Part shown: piece after piece, positions 3,001-60,510 of the stretch
How the letters are laid out: every line of letters begins with the position of its first letter
Numbering within the stretch: the stretch's first letter is position 1
Translations under genes and position numbers: made by a program
Notes under the pieces: model-generated
Database searches by the model: none
The model's input: the letters and a program-made list of their open reading frames with translations, nothing else
Told to the model about the DNA's origin: nothing
NCBI GenBank assembly: GCA_902775475.1
Contig: CACYME010000008.1
Location: forward strand, 201,513 to 265,512
DNA length: 64,000 nt
Origin: an uncultured Prevotellaceae bacterium
GTDB lineage: Bacteria; Bacteroidota; Bacteroidia; Bacteroidales; Bacteroidaceae
Direction of reading: 5' to 3'

Positions 3001-3019
3001 CGACAACAAATGGACTTAA
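2..3019 (+). CDS. tssD: T6SS tube protein Hcp/TssD with a giant N-terminal repeat extension (5' partial)
   Basis: The frame is open to the left edge, so the start lies outside; an ATG at 164 is internal. 1005 residues are visible. The last ~130 (from about nt 2625) look like a Bacteroidetes Hcp/TssD domain: a strand start near VVINNKKYG, then YDFSQACDSTGKP, RGGRITFT, FKNAYCVGL and a final DNKWT. Hcp stacks as rings to form the T6SS inner tube and can carry cargo. Everything before it is Ala/Gln/Lys-rich: first AAQGAAN-type units, then long 11-residue repeats such as AKQEASQTVDA and AKEKAEEVYNA that predict amphipathic helix. A usual Hcp is ~130-170 residues, so this is an extended Hcp with the extra part on the N-terminal side. 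vgrG starts 3 nt after the stop. The Hcp call is firm; the role of the extension (cargo, spacer or toxin) is unknown. Confidence 0.8.
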   Translation, partial: AANAAQGAAQGAANAAQGAASAAQGAAQNAASAAQGAANAAQGAAQNAASAAQGMASDAAASLQGAANGLQDAVGQAAAQAQQMGANAMDAASNVMGSAPVSIEGADQQVNAAINEAKAQAEATMAQAKAQTDQILADATQQVSELKAQAEQQIAEAASSAQSQLTDVAGQAQATAQGAFDTVQSQVQDTLSNVTNVVENAGEGAKEMAQNAIDQAGEQISSKISEVQDTASNAFDQGMQQAGDVASQVQNSAEAAADEMAQKAEQIKAELDAKANEIIEQAQAQAQATLEAAQAQVNQMLDEASQTVDAAKQEASQAWNDAKQEVSQTVDAAKQEASQAWNDAKQEVSQTVENAKAEAKQAYDSAVQQAQKTFDAAKQEASQTVDAAKQEASQAWNDAKQEVSQTVENAKAEAKQAYDSAVQQAQQTFDAAKQEAQKTLDAAKHEAQQAWDSAKQQAQQTLDSAKQEAQQAWDSAKQQAQQTYDQVVNEAKQTLDSAKQQAQQAFDSAKQQAQQAWDSAKQQAQQLYDQASQAYNDAMKKAKEAYDSAMAKARETLDAAKQKAEEAYNNIKQKAQETFDAAKQKAEEVYNAAKEKAEEVYNTVVDKAKEAYNAAKEKAEEVYNAVVDKAKETYNAAKEEAQKTYEAAKKEISDTYNAAKDEVKDTYYAAKDEVVSTYNAAKDEVKGTYYAAKDEIKDTYYAAKDEVVNTYNAAKDEVKNAYNAVKEEVQKTFNEAKEAVKEAYNNLKEEVQNVKQAITDAVNDVKEKAKEAYNEIKEKGKELLNQGKEAINNAIDSLKNTVSNTLDALSNKLKDAGKELANAAKDIASSFTDALTGGVDALKGKAGDLANAAASALGGLSPMPSAISDNDAFHGKVVINNKKYGVVECSYDFSQACDSTGKPAARPRGGRITFTMPSQSDDDVFFYNWMFEKTLVYDGFLKFVVWAKQNKRCFKTVNFKNAYCVGLRDYFNDSDSKLMYTTITLAAEVITVGVNEIATFDNKWT
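926..1300 (+). repeat. Near-identical direct repeats inside the extended-Hcp gene
   Basis: Units coding for AKQEASQAWND and neighbours recur almost identically at about 932, 998 and 1163. A longer block (AKAEAKQAYDSAVQQAQ) starting near 1066 returns near 1231, a shift of about 165 nt. All shifts are multiples of 33 nt (11 codons), so unequal recombination would change protein length without breaking the frame. Confidence 0.75.
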
Positions 3020-12242: not shown

Positions 12243-12569
12243 ATGACAGAACAAGAATTTTATCAGGAAGAGTTTATCGTCATGCTCACCATCGACGGAA
12301 CATCGTATGACGAGATTGAAGTGAAGGTGACCGACCCGAACAAGACCATCCGCGACCAGATCAACAGCATCGTGCAGGTGTTCGAGCTGCCAAAGATGGA
12401 CAACGGCGGCAACCCCATCCAGTATCTGCTGGGCAAGCTGATGGACGGCGACGAGGAGCCTGTCATCCTGGAGTTCGAGGACGAGAATGGCCGCGAGATG
12501 GCCCTCATCGACTACGAGATTGCTCCCATGGACCACCTGCACCTCATCTCGGTGCCCATCGCTGGATGA
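12243..12569 (+). CDS. Ubiquitin-like beta-grasp modifier ending in Ala-Gly
   Basis: 108 residues. The order strand (FIVMLTIDG), strand (EIEVKVTD), helix (TIRDQINSIVQVFELP), strands and the closing LIDYEIAPMDHLHLI follow the ubiquitin fold; the last segment lines up with ubiquitin LSDYNIQKESTLHLV. The chain stops right after VPIAG, so the terminal Gly is exposed without processing, in place of the usual Gly-Gly. No signal peptide: cytoplasmic. Genes for an E2, a JAMM peptidase, a RING-like protein and an E1 follow on the same strand, so it is most likely the modifier they attach, through its terminal Gly, to a Lys or other target group. The fold call alone would be moderate; the context makes it strong. 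A non-conjugated YukD-like role is the alternative. Confidence 0.85.
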   Translation: MTEQEFYQEEFIVMLTIDGTSYDEIEVKVTDPNKTIRDQINSIVQVFELPKMDNGGNPIQYLLGKLMDGDEEPVILEFEDENGREMALIDYEIAPMDHLHLISVPIAG

Positions 12570-12714
12570 AATGATAAGTGATAAGTGATGAGTGATAAGT
12601 GAAGAGTGAAGAATTTGCTTCCGCTTTCTTAACTTGAAAAATCTCAAACCTCAAATCTCAAGCACCGAACTTCAAGCCTGAAACCTCAAATCTCAAACCT
12701 CAAATCAAAAAAAC
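12570..12714 (+). repeat. Two period-7 tandem arrays between the ubiquitin-like and E2 genes
   Basis: 12570-12612 is a run of GTGATAA-type heptamers drifting into GTGAAGA; about 12642-12710 is a run of CTCAAAC/CTCAAAT heptamers with a few degenerate units. The piece AAGTGAAGAGTGAAGAATTT with following GCT (12597-12619) recurs in the terminator at 49587. No open frame or promoter is visible in this gap. Confidence 0.75.
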
Positions 12715-13371
12715 ATGAATCCCGCAATAAACAACTTTAACCTGAAGGAACTGAAGGGTCGCGACGCCCGCCTGTTCCAAGAGTGGAAGGAGCTTGACTC
12801 CGTGTGCAGCAAGCGCAAGGCCGAGGCTGCCAATCCGCTGAAGCCATCGCTGTCGTACATCATCCGCCGCAAGAACGCCATGGGCCTGCCCACGGAGTTC
12901 GAAATCTGGTATCGCTGCAAGAGCATCGTAGGCGTGGAGGAGACCGAGCCACCTCGCAAGCCCATCTTCGGCTATCTGCACAAGATGAGCGTGGTGCTGC
13001 CCAACAACTACCCATCGGCCGACGGCAACCCCGTGTTCACGTTCGTCAGCGACGTGTGGCACCCGAACATCCGCTACAGCGGCTCGTTCAAGGGCCACGT
13101 GTGCCTGACCATCAAGGAGATGGGTGTGCTGGCCTCCATCAAGGACCTGGTGCTGCGCGTGGAGCGCTACCTGAAGTACCAGATGTACCACGCCCAGAAC
13201 ACCTACCCCTACCCTGAAGACCAGACGGTGGCCGAGTGGGTGCGCGAAGAAGGTGAGCCCAACGGCTGGGTGAAGTTCACGCAGGACATGCCCGAGGAGC
13301 CGAAGCCACAGCCCAAGCCGGCACCAGCCGAGGGCGAGGAGCCGAAGAAGAGAATATCACTGAGCATCTAA
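12715..13371 (+). CDS. E2-like ubiquitin-conjugating enzyme
   Basis: 218 residues, a typical E2 core plus a Pro/Lys/Glu-rich tail (190-218). Key E2 marks are in order: the N-terminal helix with LKELKGRDARLFQEW, strands, LPNNYPSADGNPVFTF (E2 pattern FPxxYPxxPPxVxF), HPN at 116-118 followed by I, and the active-site Cys at 130 in GHVCL, followed by helices. In E2s this Cys takes the modifier from E1 as a thioester, and the HPN Asn helps isopeptide formation. No signal peptide. It follows the ubiquitin-like gene after a repeat-filled gap of 145 nt and precedes the exported partner genes by 24 nt. HPN is kept, unlike in many bacterial E2 relatives. Very likely a working E2; the target is unknown. 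Confidence 0.9.
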   Translation: MNPAINNFNLKELKGRDARLFQEWKELDSVCSKRKAEAANPLKPSLSYIIRRKNAMGLPTEFEIWYRCKSIVGVEETEPPRKPIFGYLHKMSVVLPNNYPSADGNPVFTFVSDVWHPNIRYSGSFKGHVCLTIKEMGVLASIKDLVLRVERYLKYQMYHAQNTYPYPEDQTVAEWVREEGEPNGWVKFTQDMPEEPKPQPKPAPAEGEEPKKRISLSI

Positions 13372-13395
13372 AAACCAAAACACACCTTACACAGC

Positions 13396-14481
13396 ATGAA
13401 AAAATTACTGTTATCAGTCCTCTGCTGCCTCGTCGCCCTGAACGGATGGGCCGACGAGCAGCGGAAGATCACGCTGAGCAACGACAACACCAAGGAGACC
13501 ATTAACCTGTCGTACTGCAACATCTTCGTCACGCTGCTCAACCCCGACAGCGAGGACACGCCCATGGTGCAGGTGGAGGTGGAGAACCTGGATGAGTCGA
13601 AGCTGCTGGCCTTGTTCAACAAGGCCTACACCGAGAAGCAGGTGAAGAAGCTGAAGCCCTCGTTCCAGTACGACAAGCTCTTTGGTGGCACTAAGGGCAA
13701 GCGTGTCATCGACCCGTATAACCTGGAGACGGGGAAGGACCTGTTCATTGAACCATCTAACAAGTATGCCCTGGGCGCTTTCCAGGTGCAGGCCGAGAAG
13801 CAGCTGGTGGTCCACCTGCCCATCTATCTGGCCAAGGGCAAGGACGGCATCGTGGAGCGCATTCTGGGCAAGGAGAAGCTGTTGCTGCTGCGCAAGCAGC
13901 TCATCGAGATCGACATCGACGTGAGCACGAAGCCCAGCGCCGAGTTTCTGAGCACCCAGGACGAGTGTGAGAAGCTGAAGAAGGAAATCAAGGGCACCGT
14001 GTTCTGCACCGCCAAGAAGCACAAGCAGAGTGTGGAGGAGCAGCAGGAGCCCTACAAGAAGAAGATTGAGGACCTGAAGGCCAAGATCGACGGCATCATC
14101 AGTGCCCACGGATGGACGGCCAATGATGGTGGCTACAAGCGTTTCAGCGCTCTGAAGGACGACCTGGACCAGATTGACCTGGACGCCCAGAAAGGCACTT
14201 GCAGCCAGCACAGGCCCAGCTCGAAGCCTGCCGGCCATCAGTGCAGCTATTGCTCGCTGTCGCTGCAGCAGATTTACCACCGCCTCGACGACCTCTACAA
14301 GAAAATCTACAGCGCCAGCGACCGTCAGGCCACGAAGCAGAGCGTGATGGGCCAGGTGAACGCCCTCTACAACTGCTGCACGGCCGGCGACTGCGCCAAG
14401 CACGCCAGGGACTGGAAGAACGGCGGTGGCGGCTACAAGAGCAAGATTACGGAACGCTATAACCGCATCCAAGGCTTATGA
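13396..14481 (+). CDS. Exported Cys-rich partner protein of the ubiquitin-like module
   Basis: 361 residues; not recognised. Signal peptide at 1-19 (MKKLLLSVLCCLVALNGWA). Residues 20-190 look like a beta-rich domain (FQVQAEKQLVVHLPIYLAKG), then a helical part with Cys/His clusters at about 268-290 (GTCSQH, GHQCSYCS) and 325-340 (NCCTAGDCAKH), able to form disulphides or bind metal. No further membrane helix, so periplasmic. The stop overlaps the next start by 4 nt (ATGA), hence tight co-translation. The LPIYLAKG segment resembles SIPIFLAHY in the next protein, so the two may share a domain. Being periplasmic, it is more likely a sensor or envelope partner than an enzyme of the conjugation cycle (inference). 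Confidence 0.65.
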   Translation: MKKLLLSVLCCLVALNGWADEQRKITLSNDNTKETINLSYCNIFVTLLNPDSEDTPMVQVEVENLDESKLLALFNKAYTEKQVKKLKPSFQYDKLFGGTKGKRVIDPYNLETGKDLFIEPSNKYALGAFQVQAEKQLVVHLPIYLAKGKDGIVERILGKEKLLLLRKQLIEIDIDVSTKPSAEFLSTQDECEKLKKEIKGTVFCTAKKHKQSVEEQQEPYKKKIEDLKAKIDGIISAHGWTANDGGYKRFSALKDDLDQIDLDAQKGTCSQHRPSSKPAGHQCSYCSLSLQQIYHRLDDLYKKIYSASDRQATKQSVMGQVNALYNCCTAGDCAKHARDWKNGGGGYKSKITERYNRIQGL

Positions 14482-16019
14482 CAACCCGATGGCTCAAAAG
14501 CATCGCCGCAGCGCTGCTGATGGTCGTGGCCGGTAGCTCACCCGCCGGGGCAAAGGACGTGATTGACACGCTCTACTCCTCGTCGGGCGACCGCATCATC
14601 CTCGACTACACCATCCAGCAGACAGGCGGGCAGACGACGGTGCGCTTCAACGGTGTGCAGAAGAAGCTCGGCTCGGCCAACCAGAAGAAGTACAAGAAAC
14701 TGGACGAGGTGGCCGTGGTCATCTTCGACCGCACCGGCTCTTACAACGACATGAAGTTCGAGGGCATGACACCCAGCGCCTTCATGCTGCCCGCCGGTGT
14801 GCAGTACAGCTTCTCCAACGACGGCTACTTCCTGCTGCAGGACAATCCGCAGCTGGCATTCACTGCCCCCAGCGAGGCCCAGCTGAGCATTCCCATCTTC
14901 CTGGCCCACTACGAGAAGAAGCGCCACTACAAAATCTTCAGCCAGTGCAACCCGCTGCAGTTCTCGACCAAGGTCAAGAGTGGAGGCGGTGGAGGACGCA
15001 GCAATGGCAGCGCCCGCCAGAGCGGTGGCGGAGACCGGAGCGGCGACCATGCCGCCAATGCCGACGACATCATCACCACCGAGGAGCTGCTCGACGACGG
15101 GCTCACAGCCAGCGACGACGCACTCATCACTCTTGCCAATGTGAAGAACACCCTCGACGGTGTCACCAAGCTGCCCTTCCCCGAGGACCTCACCTTCCAG
15201 GCCAACCATCTGCGCGAGCTGCGCAGCAAGATTTCCGACCTGGAAATACTGCAGCAGATCAACGACCTGCTGGCTGCCTACGACAAGAAGAAGGCTGAGC
15301 TGGAGGAGAGTGCTGCCGGTGAACAGGCTGCCGCTGCCGCCGCTGCCCAGCAGGCCGCTCAGGAACAGGCTGCCGCCCAAGCAGCCCGTCAGGACTCCAT
15401 CCAGGCTGCTCAGGAGCAGAAGGCTGCCGACGACAAGAAGGACATGATGTGGCTCATCGGAGGCATTGCCGGACTGGGCATGCTCCTCATGGCCGGAAAA
15501 CAAATTTTCCAGACCATCAAGAACAACAAGATGCAGAAGATGATGATGGACAACATCAAGAAGGCTCAGGAGCAGGCATTAGGCAACGTGAAGATTCCCG
15601 GACTGGACGACAACCCGCTGACCAAGGACGTGAACGCACAGCTGCAACGCGAGGCGCGCAAGAAGATGAACGCTGGAAGCGACGCTGCCATGGAACAGCT
15701 GAAGGCCCTGCAGAAGGGCAACACTGCCGCTGGCGCCGCCAGTCCATCTGACGGGCCATCCCCAGCCTCCCCCACGCAGCCCACGGCACCTACCCAGCCC
15801 CGCCCCGCCGACCAGCCTGCCACTCCCGGGAAGCGCCGTCTGCGCACAGCCAGCGAGGTGAGAGCAGCTGCCGGCGTTGACTCCACATCGCCCGGAATCA
15901 CCATCACGCCTGGAGCCGCCAAGGCCAGGCCCTCTTCACTGAACGATGCCATACCGGCAAAATATAAGCGCTGGCGCAAACCTGGCACAGACTCACCGAC
16001 CAACAACAACACAAAATAA
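14478..16019 (+). CDS. Exported, single-span partner protein of the ubiquitin-like module
   Basis: 513 residues; not recognised. Signal peptide about 1-25, periplasmic beta-rich domain to about 165, Gly/Ser linker (170-190), helical region, Ala/Gln coiled coil (278-318), one membrane helix at about 323-340 (MMWLIGGIAGLGMLLMAG), then a basic and Pro/Thr/Ala-rich cytoplasmic tail. The topology (periplasmic head, cytoplasmic tail) mirrors the JAMM and RING proteins encoded next, so all three may form one inner-membrane complex (inference). It starts inside the previous stop codon (ATGA) and ends 13 nt before the JAMM gene. Confidence 0.65.
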   Translation: MTTRWLKSIAAALLMVVAGSSPAGAKDVIDTLYSSSGDRIILDYTIQQTGGQTTVRFNGVQKKLGSANQKKYKKLDEVAVVIFDRTGSYNDMKFEGMTPSAFMLPAGVQYSFSNDGYFLLQDNPQLAFTAPSEAQLSIPIFLAHYEKKRHYKIFSQCNPLQFSTKVKSGGGGGRSNGSARQSGGGDRSGDHAANADDIITTEELLDDGLTASDDALITLANVKNTLDGVTKLPFPEDLTFQANHLRELRSKISDLEILQQINDLLAAYDKKKAELEESAAGEQAAAAAAAQQAAQEQAAAQAARQDSIQAAQEQKAADDKKDMMWLIGGIAGLGMLLMAGKQIFQTIKNNKMQKMMMDNIKKAQEQALGNVKIPGLDDNPLTKDVNAQLQREARKKMNAGSDAAMEQLKALQKGNTAAGAASPSDGPSPASPTQPTAPTQPRPADQPATPGKRRLRTASEVRAAAGVDSTSPGITITPGAAKARPSSLNDAIPAKYKRWRKPGTDSPTNNNTK

Positions 16020-16032
16020 CAATTCTCAATAT

Positions 16033-17841
16033 ATGAAAAAGATACAAGCATTCCTACTTTTCGCTGTCCTGCTGCTCATGGCAGGCATGCCGACGGATGC
16101 AATGGCAGCCAAGAAAGGCAAAGCCAAGGCCGAGCCGCAACCCGTCGTGGAGGTGATGGATGCCTTCAAACAACAGGTGCAAGCCGACCCTTTCCTCTCT
16201 GACGAGACTCAGACAAGGCTGAACAACGAGATTGAACAGTATCTCGACGCACTGCTCCACCGCTCTGACAAGGCAGAATATGCCGAGAAGAACGAACTGA
16301 CGCTGTTCGTGCAGGACCAGCGGCAACAACTGGAGCAGTATCGCAAGAAGGCTCCGCTGCTGATTGAGAACATTCTGCAGAACTACAACGACCTCGACGC
16401 TGAGACGGCAGTAAACTACCGCAAGGAGATGGAAGCCGCCCTGGAACAGAAGTTTACCACGCTGGAGAACAATGTGAAGCGACTCGACGACGAGATTCAG
16501 ATAGAGCCCGCGAAGACCATCGCCGACTGGAACTGGAAGCTCATCGGCGCCATCGTGGGTGCTCTGCTACTGCTCATCATCGTCTTCGCCATCATCAGCA
16601 GGAGCAAAAAGAACAAAAATGTCACCCCCGGTCCCGTCAACCCCCGCAACAACACCAGGAGCAACGGCGGACAGGGCGGTCAGCAGCAGTCTGCTGACGG
16701 CGGCATCGTCGTTCGCCGCAAGACGGCTACCATTCTGAAGAAGCAAAGCTTAGAGGATGTCATCGACAACCCCAACTACATGCAGGTGGATGCCATCGAC
16801 TTCTGCTACGAGTCGGCCGTCCGACGCATGTACATCAAGAACAGCTGCATCGAGGATATCTATAACCTCTATGCCGAAGACCTGCGCAACCCCGAGAGTC
16901 CGAAGGAGGACGGCTGCATGGTGCTGGGCCGCTGGGTCCACGACCCCGAGAGCAACGAGTACTATGTATCGCTGGAAGAGATTGTACTGCCTGGCGACGA
17001 TGCCGTGTTCGAGGAGTACGCCCTGAACTTCGGCGGTAAGATTAAGCTGAAGGTGCTGGAGCAGCTGCGCAAGCTGCGCCGCGAGACCAACCTGCAGTAC
17101 GACCTCACCTGCTGGGTGCACTCACATCCGGGCCTGGGCGTCTTCTTCAGCAACAGCGACACGTCGGTGCAGGACCAGCTGAAGCACCCTCAGCACCCCA
17201 ACTTCCTGACCGCCATCGTCGTCGACATCCTCACGCCGATGCAGGATGTGGGCATCTTCACCTACCGCCGCGACACGACCATCAACTCAAAGAGCGACCT
17301 GAAGAAGATGTACTCGCTCATCGAGTGGCACCAGTGGGCACAGGAGAGCCTGAAGACCGCCGTGCAGCGCCCCGTCAACGCCAAGCCGCAGGAGTTCAAC
17401 AGCGTGGAATACTTCAACGCGCTGGAGAATGCCAAGGAGCACGACGACAACTGCGCTGGCGTGCAGCTGAGCAAGAACGCCGTGGTAGACATCTGCATGG
17501 ACCTCACCGGACAGGGCGATGACATCATAGCCATGATGCACGGTTTTGCCAGCCAGCGCGGACAGAAGGTAGAGTATGTGGCCGAGAAGATTTCCGACAA
17601 GGACGTAGAGCCGAAGCTGAGCCTGACGGGCTGTTTCATTGCTGCCCCCCACTGCAGCATACCGACGGTGCGCCGAGTTGTGGCCAATTATCTGGACCGC
17701 ATACGCTTCGTGGTGGTCTACACACCCAGCGACGGCCTGCTCACCACCATCCCCGTCATCAACAGCGACCTCTGCACCGATGAGCAATTCTATGGCGAGC
17801 AAAGATTGGAAGACTTAAAAACCTGGATAAAACAAAGCTGA
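16033..17841 (+). CDS. Membrane-anchored JAMM (JAB/MPN) peptidase, putative deubiquitinase-like enzyme
   Basis: 602 residues from the ATG at 16033. This start begins a signal-like segment (MKKIQAFLLFAVLLLMAGMP) just after the previous gene; an ATG at 15946 would overlap it. Residues 30-160 are a helical periplasmic part, with a membrane helix at 169-189, a Gly/Asn/Gln linker and a cytoplasmic JAB domain at about 250-430. The full JAMM zinc signature is present: H363-S-H365, seven residues, S373, two residues, D376 (HSHPGLGVFFSNSD), with an upstream Glu in SLEEIVLPG. JAMM enzymes cut isopeptide bonds at the modifier C-terminus. Since the modifier already ends in Gly, removal from targets rather than maturation is the likely job. 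Residues 440-602 form an extra unrecognised domain. It ends 2 nt before the RING protein gene. Confidence 0.88.
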   Translation: MKKIQAFLLFAVLLLMAGMPTDAMAAKKGKAKAEPQPVVEVMDAFKQQVQADPFLSDETQTRLNNEIEQYLDALLHRSDKAEYAEKNELTLFVQDQRQQLEQYRKKAPLLIENILQNYNDLDAETAVNYRKEMEAALEQKFTTLENNVKRLDDEIQIEPAKTIADWNWKLIGAIVGALLLLIIVFAIISRSKKNKNVTPGPVNPRNNTRSNGGQGGQQQSADGGIVVRRKTATILKKQSLEDVIDNPNYMQVDAIDFCYESAVRRMYIKNSCIEDIYNLYAEDLRNPESPKEDGCMVLGRWVHDPESNEYYVSLEEIVLPGDDAVFEEYALNFGGKIKLKVLEQLRKLRRETNLQYDLTCWVHSHPGLGVFFSNSDTSVQDQLKHPQHPNFLTAIVVDILTPMQDVGIFTYRRDTTINSKSDLKKMYSLIEWHQWAQESLKTAVQRPVNAKPQEFNSVEYFNALENAKEHDDNCAGVQLSKNAVVDICMDLTGQGDDIIAMMHGFASQRGQKVEYVAEKISDKDVEPKLSLTGCFIAAPHCSIPTVRRVVANYLDRIRFVVVYTPSDGLLTTIPVINSDLCTDEQFYGEQRLEDLKTWIKQS

Positions 17842-17843
17842 CC

Positions 17844-20222
17844 ATGATAAAAAGATTTTTGACAGCTTGCGCCATGCTGGCATGCCTGGTGCAGGCGCAG
17901 GCTCAGGACGTGGACAAAATCCAGTTCTGCGACAAGAAGTATGAGTATGCACAGGGTAAGGACAGCATCACGCTGTTCCTGAAAGTGCTCGACAAGAAAG
18001 GCAACTCCAGCCAGGACGCGAATGCCGCTGCCCTGGAGAAGAGTCTGGTCATCAGCGAGGACGGTGCGCCCATCGCCCCTGACCGCCGCAAGATAGTGGA
18101 GCTCAGCTCCGGCGAGCGTATTCCAAACGACTTCACCTTCTCGGTGCTGGTAGACCTGAGCATCCCCGAGGAGGGTAAGGGCCAGATCTACGATGCCGTA
18201 GGACAGCTGGTGAACAGCGCTCCCGACAGCTGCGTCTACCTCTCGTTCTTCGGCGACGAGGTGACCGAGAGCCGTCTGGTGACGAAGCGCAACCTGAAAG
18301 ACTTTGAGCCGCTTTTCCACAAGCATTCCGAAGAGAAGTTCTTCTACGGCGCGCTTTACAGCAAGCTGGCTGAGTTTGCCAGCGAGAAAGCCGAACTGGA
18401 AGACTCGGTGAAGACTGCCACGGGCTATGAGCGCAACGCCGTCATCGCCAAGCGTGCCCAGGCCAACGAAGACAAGAACCTGCTCTTCGTGTTCACCGAA
18501 GGCAACATGCGCCCGGCAGACGAATTCATCTCGTTCGTCGAGGTGACCGACTACCAGTCGAATGCCACCCACATTGTGCCTAAGGTCTATGCCCTCTACT
18601 ATACCGGCGAAGGCGTCGACGAGAACGTGGAGCTGACGCTGCAGGGCGTATCCACTCCCCGCGATGCCGAGGGCAGCGTGCTGGCCAGTCGCCGTGGCTC
18701 CTATCAGCCCTCTGACGACCTGAACAGCGTGCTCAACAACTTCAAGCAGGTGGTGCGCGACGCCATGTACGACTTTGCCTACGTCTATCGCGCCACGAAG
18801 GACAAGACCTATGCCGGCGTGGTGAACTACGCTGCCGAGTGGGATAAGAAGGCAGCCGGCGAGGCTGACTACACCATCGGCTCGGTAGAGACACCCTGGC
18901 CCATCAAGGCCGAGAGCACTGGCGACACCATCACGAAGCTGCTGGTGGCCCTGCTGGTGGCCCTGCTCACGTTTGTATTCTTCTTCCTGGTGATGAAAGT
19001 GCTGGTGCCCTTCGTCAAGTCGAAGCGCTTCAGCATGCAGTATTATAAAAAGTATGTTCCCGAGGCCAACGTCTCGCGCCGCATCTGCACCTACTGCCGT
19101 CAGGACATCGAGCCGGGCCAGCTGGTGGTGACTAAGTGTAAGCACATCATGCACGTGGGCTGCTGGCAGCAGAACGGCTACAAGTGCGTGGAGTATGGCC
19201 AGAACTGTAAGGATGGCATCCAGGAGCACGTGGCATGGAAGGAGATGTTCAGCAAGGCTACACTGCGCGACACCTATCAGACCATCGCTGGCATCCTGGC
19301 CGCCCTGGTGAGCTGGATTATCTTCGAACTGACGGGCCGCGGCCTGTTCCCCGCCATCGGCACGGGCATTGCCAATGCCTTCTTCACCAACGAGGAGCAG
19401 AAGCTGAACCTGATGGGCGAATGTGCCAACAAGGTGTCAGCCTTCCTCACCATCGGTTTGCTGCTGGGATTCTTCCTCTCACTGGTGTTCCGCTGGTTCG
19501 ACGAGTATCGTAAGAAGGATGCCAAGGTCTACCTGAAGATATTCGGCCTGTCGCTGCTCTCCGGCATCATCGGCATGGCAGCCATGGCCGTGGGCGGCAT
19601 CATCTTCTGTCTGCTGCTCTCAGCCGTGGGCACCACCTACGTGCCCTGGTACTGCTCGCTGCCCGCCTACATCCTCTTCGCCGTATGCGTGCCGCTGAGC
19701 CTCACCATCAAGTCGTCTATCCCGATGAAGAGCGCCCTGCTGGGCGGAGTCATCGCTGCGGCCATCGGCTTCATCGTACTCATGTGCGGCTCCATCGGCA
19801 ACATCGGCTGGATGAACATGCTGCTCGACTTCATCATCTTCGGTGGTGGACTGGGCGCTTCGCTCGTCACAGTCCGAATGCTGGCTGAGAAGTACTTCCT
19901 GCTCATCAAGAACGGCGTGAAGGCCGGTCAGAAGATACCTATCCACAAGTGGATGAACGCCACTGGCGGTGGCAACAAGGTGACCATTGGTGCCACCGGC
20001 GACTGCGAGGTGCAGATGAACTGGGAGAAGAGCAACAAGGTGGCCAAGGAGCACGTACAGCTCTACATCGACCCAGTGAAGACGCTGCCCATGCTGAAGG
20101 CCCTGGCCACAGGTGTGCTCTACAACATGCGCACCGAGTTGCCCGTGAGCAAGACCGCCGTGCTCACCAACGGCGACACGTTCAAGATTGGCGACACCAT
20201 CTTCGAATACGTGGAGTCATAA
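17844..20222 (+). CDS. vWA-like / RING-H2-like / polytopic / FHA-like membrane protein, putative E3 ligase
   Basis: 792 residues. Signal peptide 1-20; periplasmic part 21-362 with a vWA-like core (FTFSVLVDLSIPEEGKGQIYDAV; metal site altered); membrane helix 363-391; cytoplasmic RING-H2-like segment with C415, C418, C432, H434, H437, C440, C448 and C455. The central CKHIMHVGCW is a textbook RING-H2 signature; the last pair is spaced by six residues instead of two. About six further membrane helices follow (480-680). Residues 700-792 resemble FHA (KVTIG, KEHVQL, NGDTFKIGDTIFEYV), though the usual GR and SxxH residues are not all kept. A RING would hold the charged E2; FHA reads phospho-threonine. 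Ligase activity is inferred from context. The kinase and phosphatase genes at 28.3 and 31.6 kb fit the FHA domain. Confidence 0.75.
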   Translation: MIKRFLTACAMLACLVQAQAQDVDKIQFCDKKYEYAQGKDSITLFLKVLDKKGNSSQDANAAALEKSLVISEDGAPIAPDRRKIVELSSGERIPNDFTFSVLVDLSIPEEGKGQIYDAVGQLVNSAPDSCVYLSFFGDEVTESRLVTKRNLKDFEPLFHKHSEEKFFYGALYSKLAEFASEKAELEDSVKTATGYERNAVIAKRAQANEDKNLLFVFTEGNMRPADEFISFVEVTDYQSNATHIVPKVYALYYTGEGVDENVELTLQGVSTPRDAEGSVLASRRGSYQPSDDLNSVLNNFKQVVRDAMYDFAYVYRATKDKTYAGVVNYAAEWDKKAAGEADYTIGSVETPWPIKAESTGDTITKLLVALLVALLTFVFFFLVMKVLVPFVKSKRFSMQYYKKYVPEANVSRRICTYCRQDIEPGQLVVTKCKHIMHVGCWQQNGYKCVEYGQNCKDGIQEHVAWKEMFSKATLRDTYQTIAGILAALVSWIIFELTGRGLFPAIGTGIANAFFTNEEQKLNLMGECANKVSAFLTIGLLLGFFLSLVFRWFDEYRKKDAKVYLKIFGLSLLSGIIGMAAMAVGGIIFCLLLSAVGTTYVPWYCSLPAYILFAVCVPLSLTIKSSIPMKSALLGGVIAAAIGFIVLMCGSIGNIGWMNMLLDFIIFGGGLGASLVTVRMLAEKYFLLIKNGVKAGQKIPIHKWMNATGGGNKVTIGATGDCEVQMNWEKSNKVAKEHVQLYIDPVKTLPMLKALATGVLYNMRTELPVSKTAVLTNGDTFKIGDTIFEYVES

Positions 20223-20225
20223 TGA

Positions 20226-20346
20226 TTTGAGAGTTGAGGTTTGAGATTTGAGATTGATGATGATAGTTTTCCAAATCCAGTCTTCCTCTCATCAATCTCA
20301 AACCACAAACCTCAAACCACAAACCTTAATTCTCCAACCTCAAATC
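20226..20346 (+). repeat. Inverted period-7 arrays between the RING and E1 genes
   Basis: TTTGAGA-type heptamers (20226-20260) face CTCAAAC/CACAAAC heptamers (20296-20346). The perfect 14-bp arms TTTGAGATTGATGA (20247-20260) and TCATCAATCTCAAA (20289-20302) can form a hairpin in the transcript. The second array runs on into the E1 reading frame (about 20366-20396), where it encodes most of the first 14 residues. Confidence 0.75.
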
Positions 20347-20354
20347 CTGTTAGG

Positions 20355-21692
20355 ATGGAAAATAAAGCTCAAACCTCCAACCACAAACCTCAAGCCAGCT
20401 ATGAGTGGGGCGAGGGTGTGTTCACGCTTCTCTCCTGGTTCAAGAAAGACCGGGTGAAGCAAGCCCGTGTACTCGTGGCCGGTGCTGGTGCGCTGGGCAA
20501 CGAAGTGGTGAAAAACCTGGCGCTGTTCGGCGTAGGACACATCTATGTAGCCGATTTCGACCGCATCGAGCTGTCGAACCTCACACGCTCCATCCTCTTC
20601 CGCGAGGAGGATGCCTACAGCCACGCCTACAAGGCCGACATTGTGGCCAAGCGTGCCCGCGAGATTAACCCCCAGATAGAGGTGACGCCCATCGTGGGCA
20701 ACCTTTTCTCTGAGGTGGGCTTCGGCCTGTACCGCTCGGTCGACGTCATCATCGGCTGTCTCGATAGCCGTCTGGCCCGCTACCTGCTCAACCGCCTGGC
20801 CATGCGTGCCGGCAAGAGCTGGATTGACGGCAGCATCGAGAACCTCACCGGCGTGGTGAAGGTCTACACGCCTGGGCAGAGCTGCTATGAATGTGGCCTC
20901 TCGCGCGACGAGTTCAACAACATCATGCTGCGAACGGGCTGTGCCGACGTGGTGCGAACGCAGACGGAGCATGGCCGCATTGCCACCACGCCCATCAGCG
21001 CCAGCATCGTGGGTGCCCTGCAGGTGCAGGAGGCCATGAAGCTCATCCACAAAGACACCATCGACCAGGCTGAAGACAAGGCCGACGCCACAGCTCCCCA
21101 GCAGCCTGAGCCACCCAAGGAGAAACCGCTCATCGAGCTGGTGAAGCCCATCGCCAGCATCAAGCCGACACAGGCGCTGAAGCCTGCCCCACCCTTCAAG
21201 ACGCTGGAGGGCAAGATGCTACGCTACGAGGGCATGACCTGTGCTACCAGCATCTACCGCATCGCAGCGTGGAAGAGCAACTGCCCGGCCCACGAGCGCT
21301 GGGACGAGGTGGTGGAGTGCAAGGAGCTCTCGGCCACAATGACCGTGGCCGACGCACTGAAGAAGCTGAGGGAGCTGCTGGGCACCGAGGTGGTGGAAAT
21401 CAACATGCGCAACAACAAGTTCATCGACCGCATCGTGTCCGACAGGCCTGAGAAGGAGTTCGAGGTGATGATTCCCGAATCGCGCCTCGACGACTACATC
21501 AAGCAGGATGCCGAGCTGCGCCAGCTGAGCTACCGCACGCTCATCCACAAGAACTTCTTCGAGAACATCGACGATACCTTCCCCTATCAGCAGCTCACCT
21601 TGCAGCAGATAGGCATCCCGCCCTACGACGTGGTGCAGGTGTCAACGGAGAAGGGCGTGTTCTTCGTAGAACTCACGGCTGATGCCTTTTGA
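20355..21692 (+). CDS. E1-like ubiquitin-activating enzyme (ThiF/MoeB/Uba3 fold)
   Basis: 445 residues from the ATG at 20355; an in-frame ATG at 20241 would translate the repeat array and is less likely. The adenylation domain is at 35-232: nucleotide loop VAGAGALGNE (G43, G45, G48), acidic strand ADFDRIELSNLTRS with D67 and D69, then CLDS at 135-138. CYEC (177-180) resembles the zinc knuckle of MoeB/Uba3. C196 in RTGCADVV sits where the catalytic Cys of this class is expected. A Pro-rich linker (245-280) leads to a C-terminal domain (285-445) whose end (LTLQQIGIPPYDVVQV and a last strand) looks beta-grasp-like, like the E2-binding ubiquitin-fold domain of E1s (inference). It should adenylate the modifier's terminal Gly and pass it to the E2. 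Confidence 0.88.
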   Translation: MENKAQTSNHKPQASYEWGEGVFTLLSWFKKDRVKQARVLVAGAGALGNEVVKNLALFGVGHIYVADFDRIELSNLTRSILFREEDAYSHAYKADIVAKRAREINPQIEVTPIVGNLFSEVGFGLYRSVDVIIGCLDSRLARYLLNRLAMRAGKSWIDGSIENLTGVVKVYTPGQSCYECGLSRDEFNNIMLRTGCADVVRTQTEHGRIATTPISASIVGALQVQEAMKLIHKDTIDQAEDKADATAPQQPEPPKEKPLIELVKPIASIKPTQALKPAPPFKTLEGKMLRYEGMTCATSIYRIAAWKSNCPAHERWDEVVECKELSATMTVADALKKLRELLGTEVVEINMRNNKFIDRIVSDRPEKEFEVMIPESRLDDYIKQDAELRQLSYRTLIHKNFFENIDDTFPYQQLTLQQIGIPPYDVVQVSTEKGVFFVELTADAF

Positions 21693-21716
21693 GTTAGGAG
21701 TTAGGAATTAGGAGTT
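21691..21716 (+). repeat. GAGTTAG period-7 repeats directly before the TssG-like start
   Basis: Four heptamers (GAGTTAG, GAGTTAG, GAATTAG, GAGTTAT) fill the whole gap between the E1 stop and the next ATG, whose A and T come from the last unit. It is another heptamer family at a junction of this module. Confidence 0.75.
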
Positions 21717-22601
21717 ATGCAAACACCTCACTTTCTGCCTTCGGACATCAATGTAGAGCTGCTCTTGTCCTACTACCCCATCGGGCAGTGCCGTGTGGCC
21801 CTGAAAGGCCTGCACAAGCGCAACACCTACAACGACATCATCGAGACGGAGCTGATGGCCAACGACGTGATGCACGTCACCGTGGGGCGCAACAGCCTCT
21901 ACAACTCGTTGCCGGAATATATGTTCCACCCTATCGACCGCTTCGACAACCTGCCTGCCTACGAGGAGAAGGAGCGGTTCCAGGAACAGATAGAGAAGCA
22001 AGAGGAGGAAATCAGGAAAGCCTACCAGTTCTTTGCCCCCATCGACGTGCTGCTGCTGAAGGCCCGCTCCGACGTGCGTGCCACCCTGGAGCCACTGGCG
22101 ACGGCCAACGTCGTGCTGCAGCAAATCATCGGCGACAGCCTTTCCGAAGAGCAGCGCCAGAACCGCTTCATCAGGCAGATGCTACCCTTCCTGCCCAGCT
22201 GCAAGCAGATAAGGGGCAACCGAACCCTCATCACCTTCCTGCTACGCAAGGTGCTCATGGAGGAGGGGCTGCGACTGGAGCAGAAGCGCGAGTGCCGCCA
22301 GTACACCGACGAGGAGCCGCGCTACGAGGAGCGCCTCGACATGGCACTCGGCGAGGGCTACGTGGGCAACACCTACAGCGAGCAGGTGAGCTATTTCAGC
22401 ATCCACTACTGGTCTGATGACGAGTGCCGCGAGCACTTCCTGCAGCTCATCGACGAACTGGAGCAACTCCGCCTGTTCATGAAGGACTTCTTCCTCTCCA
22501 TCGAGGAAGACATCGTGTTCGACGTCTGCGAGGATGAGCCGCCGTTGCGCCTGTCCGACGAAGTGTTCTACAATTACCTGAATTACAATACCAATATATA
22601 A
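21717..22601 (+). CDS. tssG: TssG-like T6SS baseplate protein
   Basis: 294 residues. The size, the stretch DVMHVTVGRNSLYNSLPEYMFHP near residue 50 (core VGRNSLYNSLPEYMF), the long charged helix KERFQEQIEKQEEEIRKAY and the genomic place before TssK, TssE and TssF point to the Bacteroidetes form of TssG, which with TssF builds the wedge around the VgrG hub. No signal peptide or membrane segment; cytoplasmic. Direct motif recognition is weaker than for the three following genes, so the name rests partly on context. The gap to TssK is 10 nt. Confidence 0.65.
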   Translation: MQTPHFLPSDINVELLLSYYPIGQCRVALKGLHKRNTYNDIIETELMANDVMHVTVGRNSLYNSLPEYMFHPIDRFDNLPAYEEKERFQEQIEKQEEEIRKAYQFFAPIDVLLLKARSDVRATLEPLATANVVLQQIIGDSLSEEQRQNRFIRQMLPFLPSCKQIRGNRTLITFLLRKVLMEEGLRLEQKRECRQYTDEEPRYEERLDMALGEGYVGNTYSEQVSYFSIHYWSDDECREHFLQLIDELEQLRLFMKDFFLSIEEDIVFDVCEDEPPLRLSDEVFYNYLNYNTNI

Positions 22602-22611
22602 ACCATACAAC

Positions 22612-23613
22612 ATGCCTAAAAGAATCAGTTGGAAAAAAGGAATGCGCCTCACCGACGAGGTGCTCATGGCTGCCGATGCCTGCACCTACGACCACATCAG
22701 CAAGGCGCTGCTGCTGGCCGCCGGTGGCCGTTTCGGACTGCTGCCCTCTCCCCGGCCCTTCCTGCTGCAGCTCAGCATCACGAAGGGCTTCGTCGACGTA
22801 GAGGCGCTCGACTGTCTGGCCATCACCCGTGGTGGCTACCTTATCGACGCACGCTTCGACACCAAGTTCACCAACACTTTCGACGGACGTGTGCAGATTC
22901 CCGACCATGGTGACGAGCGGGAGTTCCTGCTGACCATCAACATCGCCACCGAAGCATGGAGCGACACCGCCGACGGCTACTGCGAGCCTCGCTACTCGTT
23001 TGCGCTCATCGGTGCTAATTCGGCAGTACCCGACAACGCCATGCCCATCGGACGAATCATCAACGAGGACGGGTGGCGCGAGGACAACACCAAGTTCGTG
23101 CCGCCATGTCTCTACCTCTCGTCGCACAGCAAGTTCGAGGAGCTCCACGCACAGTTCATCAACATGATGCGCACCCTCGACGACGCCACACGGCAACAGC
23201 TCGACACCGGTGCCCGCACGGCCATCAGCATCTACTGGCCCGTGGTTCAGCAGATGCTCATCACCGCCAATGCCGAACACGAGCTGATGACGCCGCAGTC
23301 ACTGCTGGCCTGCGTGCAGAAGGTGGTGGGAGCCTTCACCCTGGCCTGCGAGTTCGACGAGGCCATCACCCTCTCCGAGGCCGACACGTTCAACAACTTC
23401 GCCCGCGTGCCCTACAGCTACCGCAATGCCTACCTGCGCATCAAGCAGGGCCTGGGTATGTGCTACGCCATCAGCGAGAAGGTCGAGCGCTTCAGCCTGC
23501 TGAAGAAGCAGGAGCCCACACCACCGCCCCCACCACCCCCTGCACCCGAGCCCATGAGAGTGGAACCGCCTAAACCCGACCCACGCCGCATCTGGGACGG
23601 CAAGCGTATATGA
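22612..23613 (+). CDS. tssK: T6SS baseplate protein TssK
   Basis: 333 residues. The opening RISWKKGMRLTDEVLMAAD matches the TssK start pattern (W..GM.L....F), followed by the beta-rich shell domain and a helical C-terminal half. TssK trimers link the baseplate wedges to the membrane complex. The C-terminus ends in a proline stretch (EPTPPPPPPPAPEP) and a basic tail. The stop overlaps the TssE start by 4 nt (ATGA). No signal peptide. Confidence 0.8.
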   Translation: MPKRISWKKGMRLTDEVLMAADACTYDHISKALLLAAGGRFGLLPSPRPFLLQLSITKGFVDVEALDCLAITRGGYLIDARFDTKFTNTFDGRVQIPDHGDEREFLLTINIATEAWSDTADGYCEPRYSFALIGANSAVPDNAMPIGRIINEDGWREDNTKFVPPCLYLSSHSKFEELHAQFINMMRTLDDATRQQLDTGARTAISIYWPVVQQMLITANAEHELMTPQSLLACVQKVVGAFTLACEFDEAITLSEADTFNNFARVPYSYRNAYLRIKQGLGMCYAISEKVERFSLLKKQEPTPPPPPPPAPEPMRVEPPKPDPRRIWDGKRI

Positions 23614-24104
23614 GCTTCATCAGCACACCCCTCAGCTACATGGGGCCCAGCCTGGTGCTGGCACGCAACATCGAGGACTCCATCGCCATGCTCGACAACC
23701 TGGTGGAGCTTGTCGTGTTCACGCCGCGGGGCAGCTTCGCCGCCGACCCCGACTTCGGCTTCGAATACTGGAACCACGAGTTCTCAAACGTGCACTACCA
23801 TGAGTTCAACATCAACCAGACGGGCAGTGTATCCTCGGGCCTGCGCAACGAGGTGACCCGCAAGGAGTGCGAGGACAGTATCCGCCAGAGCCTGGCCACC
23901 TATATGCCCATGCTGAAGAACGTCAGTGTGTCCATCCTCCTCGACAGCGCTTTTGAGAAAGGCGGGCACCGCAAGAAAGCCCCCTCGAAATACGAGCTCA
24001 ACGTGGTGGTCAACGGCAGCCTTGACGACGGCCTTGGCACACGCCGCCCCTACAGCAAGGCCGTGGTGTTCTTCGTGGAGCCCACGGTGAAGCGCTACCG
24101 TTAG
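23610..24104 (+). CDS. tssE: T6SS baseplate protein TssE (gp25-like)
   Basis: 164 residues, the normal gp25/TssE length. Visible parts: the N-terminal helix with ARNIEDSIAMLDNLVELVVFTP, then RGSFAADPDFGFEYW (the usual start-loop of gp25 proteins), the helix ECEDSIRQSLATYMPMLKNV and closing strands. gp25-like proteins start sheath assembly on the baseplate. It overlaps the TssK stop by 4 nt. A 140-nt gap follows before TssF, with short inverted pieces (AAAATCCG at 24142, CGGATTTT at 24200) but no open frame. Confidence 0.82.
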   Translation: MSFISTPLSYMGPSLVLARNIEDSIAMLDNLVELVVFTPRGSFAADPDFGFEYWNHEFSNVHYHEFNINQTGSVSSGLRNEVTRKECEDSIRQSLATYMPMLKNVSVSILLDSAFEKGGHRKKAPSKYELNVVVNGSLDDGLGTRRPYSKAVVFFVEPTVKRYR

Positions 24105-24244: not shown

Positions 24245-26038
24245 ATGGATGTAGACCTGCAAAAAAGAATCAACGAAGCGGTCATCGCGCTTGGCCAGCT
24301 CTCGGCACAGCCCATCGACTTCAACCAGATGGACCCCATCGCCAAGATGATGATTGTGGCGCTGGTGTGCGAGGCGCAGAAGATACAGGACTATGCCGAC
24401 GGAGCCACCGAGCGCATCGTCGACCGCTTCTGCACCGACTTCATCCCCCGTCAGAAGGTGGAAGCCATGCCCGCCGTGTGCCTGCTGCGCCCTGAGCTGA
24501 AAGACCGCAGCGACACGGCCATCGTCAACATCGGCAGCGGTGCCGAGTTCTCCTATAAGAAAGAAGGCATCAAAGTTCCCCTGAACTATATTCCCCTATT
24601 CAACACCGCGCTGTTGCCCCACAAGGGCCTCTACCTGCTCAACCACCGGCGCATGCGCGACGGCATGAACGCCATCGACATCAGCATGGAGAAGCCCAAC
24701 CAGGCCTGGATAGGCATCCAGACCAACGCCGAGCTGAACAGCATGCGGGGCATCTCGATGCTCATCAAGGGCACCAACGGCATGACGCCCGAACACGTCT
24801 ACGTGGCCACCGCCAACCAGGAGCTGGACTTCTCGACGATGCTCGAAATGGAGAACATCGAGATGGCCGAGCCCTTCGACGCACAGCAGTCGTCGGAACA
24901 GTTCTTCTCGCTCATCGAGAGCTGGAAGGAGAGCCTGCTGAACATCAGCGACGGCGCCATCCTCTACATCACCGACGAGGTGGTCGACCGCGACCTGTTC
25001 AAGCCACGCCAGTTCCCGCGCTCCTTCCAGCAGTGGCTCGAGAGCGACGTGCTCGACTACTTCAAGCCCGCCACCATCTGGCTGCGGCTCGACTTCCCCG
25101 AGGGCTATGTCGTGCCCGACAGCTTCGACGTTGTCCTCGGCGTGCTGCCCGTGACCAACATCGACGTCTGCTCGCTCATGCTCACCCAGGCACAGCCCAT
25201 CGCCAAGCTGCAGCAGCATGACGAGTCGTTCTTCCTCCGCATCCTCGAGACGAGCACCAACGCCAACCGCGAGGGCTTCAACATGACGAAGGACGAAATC
25301 ATCGTGCGCGACTTCGACGCCCGCTGCTATGACAACGGCGACCTCTACCGCGACGTGCGCAACCTCTACAATCGCTTCATCGACGACTACTACGCCTTCA
25401 TCGAGTACAACGGCATCAAGGACGGCGAGGTGCTCAAGCAGCTGCGCGAGACCATCAACCGGCTGGGCAAGAGCGTGGGCCAGCAGAACGAGAACTTCAA
25501 GTTTGACAGTGGCACCTACGCCATGAAGAACATGAACCAGTATCCCCCCACGCTGTCCACCCGCGTCAGCTTCATCACCACCATGGGCCGCATCGGCAAC
25601 GCCCCCCGCGCCGGCGAGCTGATGGAGAACAAGCGCGAGCCCGCCCTGGAACAGAAGGTGGGCATCCTCGTCTCAGCCATGGGCGGCACCGACAAGGCCA
25701 CCGCCGACGAGCGCTACGAACTGCTGCGCTACTTCGCCCTGACCAACGACCGTCTCTACACCCGCATGGACATCGATGCCTTCCTCCGCAAGGAGATACT
25801 CGCCGAGTTCGGCAAGGAGGAGTTCCGACGCATCTTCATCAAGATGAGCGTCGAGGGTGCCGCTGGCGGCAGCAGCCTGCAGCGCGGTCTCTACATCGTC
25901 ATCGAGTTCAAGGACCGCAAGAACTTCCAGCATGCCCAGCGCATGGCCTTCGACAGGCTGCTACAACAGCGCATCCGCAACCGCTCCTGCATCGCCATGC
26001 CCATCATCATCACGTTGAAGAACCTCGAGGAAGACTAA
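24245..26038 (+). CDS. tssF: T6SS baseplate protein TssF
   Basis: 597 residues, normal TssF length. N-terminal helical part (LQKRINEAVIALGQLSAQP, IVDRFCTDFIPRQKVEAMPA), then the typical beta-rich body with PALCLLRPELK-like wording (VCLLRPELKDRSD), SYKKEGIKVPLNY and a long C-terminal region ending in MPIIITLKNLEED. TssF forms a 2:1 wedge with TssG. Cytoplasmic. The next gene starts 11 nt later, so transcription probably runs on. The match is by overall pattern and neighbours (TssE, TssK). Confidence 0.82.
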   Translation: MDVDLQKRINEAVIALGQLSAQPIDFNQMDPIAKMMIVALVCEAQKIQDYADGATERIVDRFCTDFIPRQKVEAMPAVCLLRPELKDRSDTAIVNIGSGAEFSYKKEGIKVPLNYIPLFNTALLPHKGLYLLNHRRMRDGMNAIDISMEKPNQAWIGIQTNAELNSMRGISMLIKGTNGMTPEHVYVATANQELDFSTMLEMENIEMAEPFDAQQSSEQFFSLIESWKESLLNISDGAILYITDEVVDRDLFKPRQFPRSFQQWLESDVLDYFKPATIWLRLDFPEGYVVPDSFDVVLGVLPVTNIDVCSLMLTQAQPIAKLQQHDESFFLRILETSTNANREGFNMTKDEIIVRDFDARCYDNGDLYRDVRNLYNRFIDDYYAFIEYNGIKDGEVLKQLRETINRLGKSVGQQNENFKFDSGTYAMKNMNQYPPTLSTRVSFITTMGRIGNAPRAGELMENKREPALEQKVGILVSAMGGTDKATADERYELLRYFALTNDRLYTRMDIDAFLRKEILAEFGKEEFRRIFIKMSVEGAAGGSSLQRGLYIVIEFKDRKNFQHAQRMAFDRLLQQRIRNRSCIAMPIIITLKNLEED

Positions 26039-60301: not shown

Positions 60302-60334
60302 TTCAAAGATAACAAACAATAACAATCGGAAACC

Positions 60335-60375
60335 AAATCCGTGTAGCTCACCGAGTTACACGGATTTGCCGTTTT
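60335..60375 (+). terminator. dnaK terminator
   Basis: Stem AAATCCGTGTA / TACACGGATTT with an 11-nt loop and a T-rich end. Confidence 0.88.
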
Positions 60376-60510
60376 AAGGGGTTTGTTCTTCGTTATCGAT
60401 TTCTATCGTTTCCTATCTCATATATATTCCTTATTTGTACCGCAACAAAAAAGTCGATAAAGTGCAACAAAAATATTTGAGTAAAAATGATGAATTAAAA
60501 ATGTCGTAAA

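Follow-up and report, generated by a model that had tools for sequence, protein, structure and literature searches.

Genes for a proposed ubiquitin-like conjugation pathway in a type VI secretion locus of Bacteroidota suggest control of the machine by a small protein tag

A putative five-gene conjugation set and its conserved residues

We analysed a stretch of DNA of 64,000 nt (the window) from an uncultured Prevotellaceae bacterium (GCA_902775475.1, genome G000 of our sample; contig CACYME010000008.1, positions 201,513-265,512 of the forward strand, or G000:C8:201513-265512), in which genes for a ubiquitin-like protein (UBL), an E2, a JAMM peptidase, a RING membrane protein and an E1 lie inside a type VI secretion system (T6SS) locus. 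These five genes are all on the + strand (as are the neighbouring T6SS, kinase and phosphatase genes described below), in the order UBL, E2, JAMM, RING and E1 within 12243-21692, and the module that they form sits between T6SS spike genes on its left and baseplate genes on its right. Their coordinates confirm the strand and order given in an earlier reading made from the sequence alone, without database searches (the sequence-only reading). The gene set suggests that attachment of a small protein tag serves to assemble or control this T6SS. Two further genes, g11 and g12, sit between E2 and JAMM and encode envelope-type proteins of no known family, and the likely starts of two module genes (JAMM, 16033; E1, 20355) differ from those of the raw open reading frames (ORFs).

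The enzymes of the module carry the residues expected of their families. Motif counts given here were taken over all matches in 80 related loci (81 E2, 71 E1, 73 JAMM and 72 RING matches), and row counts come from alignments A4-A7, which are hand-picked, non-redundant and length-filtered subsets of those matches together with relatives. The E2 (12715-13371, 218 aa) has HPN at residues 116-118 and Cys 130, just as the sequence-only reading had described; by single-sequence Pfam search it matches UQ_con at 1.5e-5 with 25.1 bits, just under the curated cut-off of 27, and its family profile searched against PDB sequences reaches UBE2K at 3.6e-9. HPN was present in 81/81 matches and HPN-x11-C in 80 of them. 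The E1 (20355-21692, 445 aa; raw ORF from 20241) consists of a ThiF domain and a C-terminal extension, with a single-sequence Pfam match to ThiF at 1.2e-47 and family-profile matches to UBA7 (2.9e-34), MoeB (1e-27) and BubCD (6e-12), and both GxGxxG and DxDxxExxNLxR occur in all 71 matches. Four of its cysteines (C163, C166, C182 and C296 in A7 numbering) are invariant in 37/37 rows. The Cys 196 singled out earlier fits the start at 20355, corresponds to residue 234 of the ORF from 20241 and to C182 of A7, and by its position is the probable catalytic cysteine. Because the E1 also matches the ThiF and MoeB families, one could imagine a sulfur-carrier or biosynthetic pathway of the ThiF/ThiS type that merely neighbours the T6SS; against this stands an E2 with a cysteine, accompanied by a RING and a JAMM, all with their active sites conserved, and we consider it very improbable.

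The JAMM peptidase and the RING protein are both predicted to lie in the membrane. The JAMM peptidase (16033-17841, 602 aa) has an N-terminal hydrophobic stretch, a transmembrane segment (TM) at 170-188 and a JAB domain predicted to be cytosolic; single-sequence Pfam gave Prok-JAB at 0.0063, under the cut-off, and the family profile gave Rpn11 at 3e-9. The motif HxH-x7-S-x2-D, noted earlier as HSH..S..D, is present in the window and in 71/73 matches, and E321, H392, H394, S402 and D405 (numbered from the ORF start at 15946) are invariant in 37/37 rows. One related module (L089) holds two E2 and two JAMM matches. The RING protein (17844-20222, 792 aa) combines a vWA-like region, a TM at 366-384, a RING at 415-455, six TMs between 480 and 677 and an FHA-like region at ~700-790. 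RING models were the only ones to match the window protein at 0.01 or better, none of them over its curated cut-off (zf-RING_16, 0.0017), and the family profile found RNF165 at 0.0015; among family members, Pfam identified zf-RING_2 in 16/38, FHA in 9/38 and VWA in 4/38. The eight Cys/His residues of the RING are invariant in 38/38 aligned rows, with the strict spacing pattern in 63 and a relaxed one in 70 of the 72 matches. Since hydropathy places one TM before the RING and six between it and the FHA region, RING and FHA should lie on the same side, predicted to be the cytosolic one, and the protein is a candidate E3.

For the envelope-type proteins between E2 and JAMM, Pfam returned no credible match. 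The product of g11 (13396-14481, 361 aa) has a signal-peptide-like start judged by eye and was found in 69/80 loci, and that of g12 (14478-16019, 513 aa), found in 64/80 loci, has by eye a similar start and a possible TM at ~323-345, where a hydropathy scan called no TM.

The identity of the UBL (12243-12569, 108 aa) is the weakest of the five. Its C-terminus, SVPIAG, ends on the glycine noted earlier, and a single-sequence Pfam scan gave no credible match. When its family profile was searched against PDB sequences the matches were ubiquitins, the best single-ubiquitin chain scoring 0.0046 in an alignment confined to the C-terminal half; the much lower E-values of tandem ubiquitins arise from the summing of weak repeats and do not measure strength. 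Among 51 family members, Pfam matched ubiquitin in seven (best 0.0013) and YukD in five (best 0.00046), and the unrelated Glypican model also matched eight (best 0.011). Profile searches, which had been set beforehand as a refuting test, thus support the E2 and, more weakly, the ubiquitin-likeness of the UBL. A terminal Gly was present in 71/74 UBLs assigned beside an E2, and the other three (L034, L086 and L099) extend 2-4 residues past a conserved Gly and would need processing. No Gly filter was applied in this count. The UBL alignment A3 draws on 54 non-redundant UBLs selected for their length and for having a Gly within the last eight residues, so that its invariant Gly is not independent. 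In five loci (L052, L068, L071, L081 and L093) the UBL profile has a second, longer match that does not end in Gly and lies upstream of the canonical one; it may be a protein fused to a UBL or a copy in decay.

Substitution rates show purifying selection. Against five relatives that we picked from the nearest loci, the UBL had a ratio of nonsynonymous to synonymous substitution rates (dN/dS) of 0.037-0.050, the E2 one of 0.045-0.13 and TssG one of 0.11-0.26, values that are rough because several dS exceed 1.

The T6SS locus and its recurrence among relatives

When one genome per species was scanned, 202 relatives of the E2 were confirmed, and the best 80 of these 202 loci were analysed, with the other 122 left out. 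These loci span Prevotella, Xylanibacter, Palleniella, Barnesiella, Muribaculaceae, Alistipes, Tannerella, a Sphingobacteriia genome and others. Within 10 kb, 77/80 loci have one or more of nine T6SS genes, and 70/80 do so if TssH, TssB, TssC, TssK, TssE and TssF alone are counted. The sequence-only reading had named a single, fortuitous adjacency in related genomes as an outcome that would count against it; as T6SS genes accompany the module in 77/80 related loci, the adjacency is not a single chance event. Neither of its two refuting outcomes was seen, which supports its reading; the function that it proposed, in which tagging of T6SS parts, effectors or envelope proteins would control secretion or protect the owner, is a prediction. 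By best profile, the UBL was found in 78 loci, JAMM in 72, RING in 72, E1 in 71 and TssG in 68, and all five module parts occur together in 68/80. The typical order is TssH-B-C-Hcp-VgrG-PAAR-UBL-E2-g11-g12-JAMM-RING-E1-TssG-TssK-TssE, with a gene between RING and E1 in 25 loci. Three loci are without any T6SS gene (L025, L072 and L092), the first of which is a contig of 6.7 kb. Another order, with E1 before TssG-TssK-TssE-TssF and UBL-E2-g11-g12-RING after them, was seen in L097, L102 and the same-genus genomes G018, G020 and G025, which despite this keep UBL, E2, RING and E1 with the T6SS.

Records labelled as metagenome-assembled genomes (MAGs) or as uncultured contribute 77/80 loci, which might point to chance adjacency or an assembly artefact. 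The same order in many species, including the three sources not so labelled (Xylanibacter muris PMUR, Palleniella intestinalis PINT and Barnesiella sp. An22), and an association that holds in an independent sample of 295 Bacteroidales genomes (below) make this explanation hardly credible.

E1, TssG, TssK and TssE run almost without gaps (E1-TssG 24 bp, TssG-TssK 10 bp, TssK-TssE -4 bp), JAMM and RING are 2 bp apart, and wider gaps separate UBL from E2 (145 bp), RING from E1 (132 bp) and TssE from TssF (140 bp). Seven-base tandem repeats occupy intergenic gaps of the module (12572-12612, 12639-12704, 20224-20255, 20297-20344 and 21691-21717). Across the relatives, the E1 gene is directly followed by TssG in 68/71 loci with an E1. 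On the spike side, VgrG was found in 56/80 loci and DUF4280, a PAAR-like family, in 62/80, and this neighbourhood lends some weight to a role in effector preparation or self-protection, in which effectors, spike proteins or targets of immunity would receive the UBL, either to be loaded or to be neutralised ahead of firing. A cousin of the module, described below, that adjoins a PAAR gene and eCIS_core proteins points the same way. The linkage to TssG and TssK, gapless in the window and found in 68/71 loci, argues against it, as do the UBL and E2, which had the lowest dN of eight genes in all five comparisons, unlike genes in an effector-immunity arms race, and we hold this role to be unlikely.

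T6SS genes flank the module on both sides, as the sequence-only reading had it, with weak matches for TssK and TssE. To the left, a 951-aa protein (164-3019) carries an Hcp (TssD) domain at residues 819-950 (PF17642, 4.2e-29); its N-terminal part matches an apolipoprotein A1/A4/E profile (7.5e-27), an unusual extension for a tube protein. It is followed by the VgrG spike (3023-5218; Phage_base_V 5.9e-14, Phage_GPD 1.4e-11) and a DUF4280 (PAAR-like) tip protein with a C-terminal extension (6284-7966; PF14107, 2.7e-34). Just left of the window, TssC (2.8e-130), TssB and TssH were recognised by match to relatives, and sheath, tube, spike, baseplate and ClpV are all present in one locus. To the right lie a TssG-like baseplate protein (g16, 21717-22601), for which Pfam and NCBIfam scans gave nothing above noise and whose profile matches the gene beside TssK/TssN in the TssN-type loci L114, L115 and L116; a TssK-like baseplate protein (22612-23613; TIGR03353, 1.5e-4, below cut-off); a TssE-like (gp25) protein (23610-24104; GPW_gp25, 0.0054, below cut-off), whose profile matches TssE-position genes; and a TssF-like protein (24245-26038) that has no Pfam match and shares 24-25% identity with the TssF-position gene of three relatives (2e-9 to 5e-11). 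The names TssG and TssF thus rest on position and on match to relatives. Further right are genes for a peptidoglycan-binding protein, a glucosaminidase, a Ser/Thr kinase with one predicted TM at 304-322 (28273-29790; Pkinase 4e-39), a WG-repeat protein and a PP2C phosphatase (31615-32484; PP2C 5.5e-18).

With TssH/ClpV encoded in the same locus and a JAMM whose profile is closest to Rpn11, the deubiquitinase of the proteasome, the UBL might instead serve turnover or recycling, marking spent or misassembled parts of the sheath, tube or baseplate so that ClpV or a protease could release or degrade them, after which the JAMM would recover the UBL. The predicted membrane location of RING and JAMM and the lack of a JAMM in some lineages argue against this, though not strongly, and we rate turnover as improbable as effector preparation.

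Elsewhere in the window, a 1604-aa protein with DEAD/Helicase_C and UvrD helicase domains is encoded at 51128-55942, and an Hsp70 (DnaK-like) gene followed by a tyrosine integrase at 58373-62330 perhaps marks an element boundary. Scans for promoter-like sites (8 versus 4.1 expected, sd 2.0, with 5 on the opposite strand) and terminator-like sites (10 versus 13.7 expected) were not used.

A T6SS branch without TssN over cut-off

TssN is the hub of the membrane complex of the known Bacteroidota T6SS. The T6SSiii of this phylum has a TssNQOPR membrane complex, with tssN and tssP nearly ubiquitous and T6SSiii reported as the sole type in the phylum, according to PMC10781749. The system shares with T6SSiii a TssC of PF17541, a TssD-family Hcp, TssB, TssH, VgrG, TssG, TssK, TssE and TssF; the difference is that here no TssN was found over cut-off, and the UBL cascade with RING, JAMM, g11 and g12 envelope proteins is present instead. 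Searches for TssN stayed below cut-off in 13/13 genomes with the UBL-type T6SS, some of them incomplete MAGs, with 2/2 controls positive, and likewise found none over cut-off in G018, G020 and G025; sub-cut-off matches in G000 (2.3e-4) and G020 (6e-4) fall in frames of ~700 aa on other contigs. TssR was found in 0/13 UBL-type genomes, in a search that was positive in only 1/2 controls, and no match to the TssO, TssP or TssQ families appeared among the scanned genes of the window and of locus L012, no genome-wide search having been made.

No genome of a Bacteroidales sample had TssN together with the E2. Among these 295 Bacteroidales genomes, TssC was found in 15, TssN in 6 and the E2 in 5, and the 15 genomes with TssC comprise six with TssN, four with the E2, none with both and five with neither (G274, G282, G293, G305 and G308). 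Four of the five genomes with the E2 have TssC, on the same contig as the E2, and a one-sided Fisher test of the association of E2 with TssC gave p = 2e-5 with the window's genome counted and p = 3e-4 without it. In G274, G305 and G308, the contig that carries TssC is short or ends at that gene, and the remaining genes may be missing for this reason. A TssC tree (40 of 45 rows kept after removal of near-copies) placed the six TssN genomes together with G305, G274 and G282 on one side of a branch with 100/100 support, and all 30 UBL rows together with G293, represented by a 406-aa piece cut at the region border, on the other. Set beside the account in PMC10781749, the UBL-type T6SS looks like a subtype that its models overlooked or that falls outside them.

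The genome G293 (99% complete, from the window's family) has a colinear T6SS, in the order TssH-B-C-Hcp-Hcp-VgrG-PAAR-M23 peptidase-TssG-TssK-TssE-TssF with kinases, FHA and WG proteins. We considered a recent loss that had left a relic gene and rejected it, since the gene between PAAR and TssG is the M23 peptidase and is unmatched by the profile of the gene between RING and E1 from 25 loci; the module may have been lost or may be primarily absent. We likewise considered, and dropped, the UBL as a detached domain of TssN. The UBL alignment compared by profile with four TssN proteins gave a probability of 0.1 and no relation, so that sequence gives no support for a free UBL standing in for the ubiquitin-like domain of TssN itself.

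Known systems, cousin modules and a proposed role

Sets of E1, E2, UBL and JAB proteins are known in bacteria as defence systems, and the window shares E1, E2 and JAB-type proteins with the Bil/Bub systems and with Cap2/Cap3 of the cyclic-oligonucleotide-based antiphage signalling systems (CBASS). None of these is known to contain a RING. In CBASS Cap2/Cap3, an E1-E2 fusion is encoded beside a CD-NTase, whereas the E1 and E2 of the window are separate genes and no CD-NTase-type match was found among 37 window genes scanned with Pfam. The match of the E1 ThiF domain to PADLOC E1-E2 models would suit a defence module akin to Bil/Bub or CBASS that is carried along with T6SS loci. PADLOC gave no match, however, for the window's UBL, E2 or JAMM (2023 library, which may not include every Bil model), the E1 profile scores much better with UBA7 than with BubCD, to which it is only distantly similar, a tblastn search with the E2 at 1e-5 had no match in 50,697 phage or 72,556 plasmid records, and the module's place in the T6SS locus is conserved, which together leave this origin quite improbable.

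The Caldiarchaeum operon, as described in PMC5654768, is a five-part set of UBL, E1, E2, RING and Rpn11-like JAMM. What differs here is the predicted membrane location of both RING and JAMM, the fusion of the RING to vWA and FHA regions and the setting in a T6SS locus. For Caldiarchaeum, a pro-ubiquitin cut by Rpn11 is described (PMC5654768), whereas 71/74 UBLs of the present family already end at Gly. The FtsH-ternary conflict systems resemble the module in having a bacterial UBL, E1, E2, RING, JAB and a vWA protein; they differ in carrying UBL and E2 in one protein and in their partners (MoxR-vWA, FtsH and EAD1 effectors), and T6SS goes unmentioned in the section that describes them (PMC7159879). 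Operon type 6d of Iyer et al. 2006 also has UBL, JAB, E1 and E2 as separate bacterial genes, including in a Bacteroides, and its E2 is without the classical conserved histidine, unlike the 81/81 matches here with HPN; by this feature the module does not belong to type 6d (PMC1779556). The parts are of known families, and it is their combination with a T6SS that we did not find described in the open-access papers searched. A 2011 paper of Burroughs, Iyer and Aravind on prokaryotic RING fingers may mention such a context.

A cousin of the module lies near an eCIS-like cluster in two other genomes. In a sample of 345 genomes across the phylum, the E2 was found in three, the window's genome and two of one other genus (G393 and G487). 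In these two, E1-UBL-E2-JAMM-RING adjoins a PAAR gene (identified by Pfam in G393) and eCIS_core proteins, and at a distance of ~23 and 46 kb the contig also carries a sheath gene (PF04984), just under cut-off in G393 and over it with its neighbours in G487, in a gene order that by eye resembles extracellular contractile injection systems (eCIS). The window's system is distinguished from eCIS as a T6SS with Hcp, VgrG, TssK and ClpV. In a further genome, G051, the module stands beside SrfB and Virul_Fac genes, with a sheath gene on another contig; its loci L013 and L014 also encode a subtilase, another JAMM and a protein of 357 aa that at its start resembles the local UBL by eye. TssC was not found in G051, G393 or G487, in a search without a positive control there, though the same model found TssC in 15 of the 295 Bacteroidales genomes. 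From these contexts, contractile injection systems of more than one kind seem to be associated with the module.

The reading that we favour, with a little more than even confidence, is that the module is a membrane-anchored pathway of UBL conjugation and deconjugation that controls assembly of a distinct Bacteroidota T6SS subtype. We infer from gene content and conserved residues that conjugation occurs, and propose the following course. The E1 would activate the C-terminal Gly of the UBL and hand the UBL to Cys 130 of the E2, which would work with the RING domain of a polytopic inner-membrane protein and so keep the reaction at the envelope. The UBL would then be attached to a T6SS component, most likely the baseplate or the envelope anchor, because the enzymes are encoded with TssG, TssK and TssE and are held at the membrane, and the membrane JAMM would remove it again. 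Through its FHA-like domain, the RING protein may link this step to phospho-signalling by the cluster's Ser/Thr kinase and PP2C phosphatase, for which the threonine phosphorylation pathway of other T6SSs offers an analogy. In a T6SS without the TssN hub, such a cycle would license baseplate docking at the membrane, or reset it. Kinase and phosphatase genes in the same gene run, and RING, FHA and vWA regions in one membrane protein family, support such a pathway. A wider version, in which a class of Bacteroidota contractile injection systems has covalent UBL tagging built in, the RING-vWA-FHA protein with E1, E2, UBL and JAMM replaces TssNQOPR, docking needs conjugation and a cousin serves eCIS, is one that we put forward tentatively, as distinctly less probable.

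Several observations weigh against this assembly pathway. The UBL fold is read from a weak ubiquitin match over half its length, and the UBL showed no resemblance to TssN in profile comparison. Locus L072 has the module with no T6SS gene within ~10 kb, and in L092 the E2 lies at a contig end with no other module part in 10.6 kb. No JAMM was found within loci L097 and L102, and a whole-genome search of G018, G020 and G025 gave only weak partial JAMM matches (~1e-3) outside the catalytic stretch, so that reversal of conjugation would not be universal. Distribution is patchy, with the E2 at <1e-30 in 5/60 near relatives (the window's genome included), absent from most same-genus genomes and present in 5/295 Bacteroidales genomes; a weak E2 match in G019 (9.7e-4, L015) was discarded, as no other module or T6SS gene was matched in the surrounding 20 kb. 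In the TssC tree, L093 and G081 attach nearest the TssN side, where several long branches make details unsure, and G051 has the module and is negative for TssC in the 295-genome search as well. Finally, the colinear T6SS of G293 is without E2 and without TssN, and a JAMM was not found there either, which means that the module is dispensable for some T6SSs of this branch or that the G293 system is different or decayed, and it is mainly for this reason that we do not call the module an obligate part.

Bacterial UBL conjugation is known from antiphage defence. It is also met in operons of unknown role (PMC7159879). A pathway of this kind that belongs to a named machine, whose output (secretion and killing) can be scored, would allow its targets to be sought directly. 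Our observations point to a T6SS subtype without TssN, raising the question of what anchors such a T6SS. Studies of how eukaryotic ubiquitin signalling arose also gain a compact putative bacterial cascade to compare with, one whose E2 has HPN, whose JAMM is Rpn11-like and whose RING protein is predicted to sit in the membrane. In these gut bacteria, a gene set that resembles the ubiquitin machinery is built into the genes of a weapon used on neighbours.

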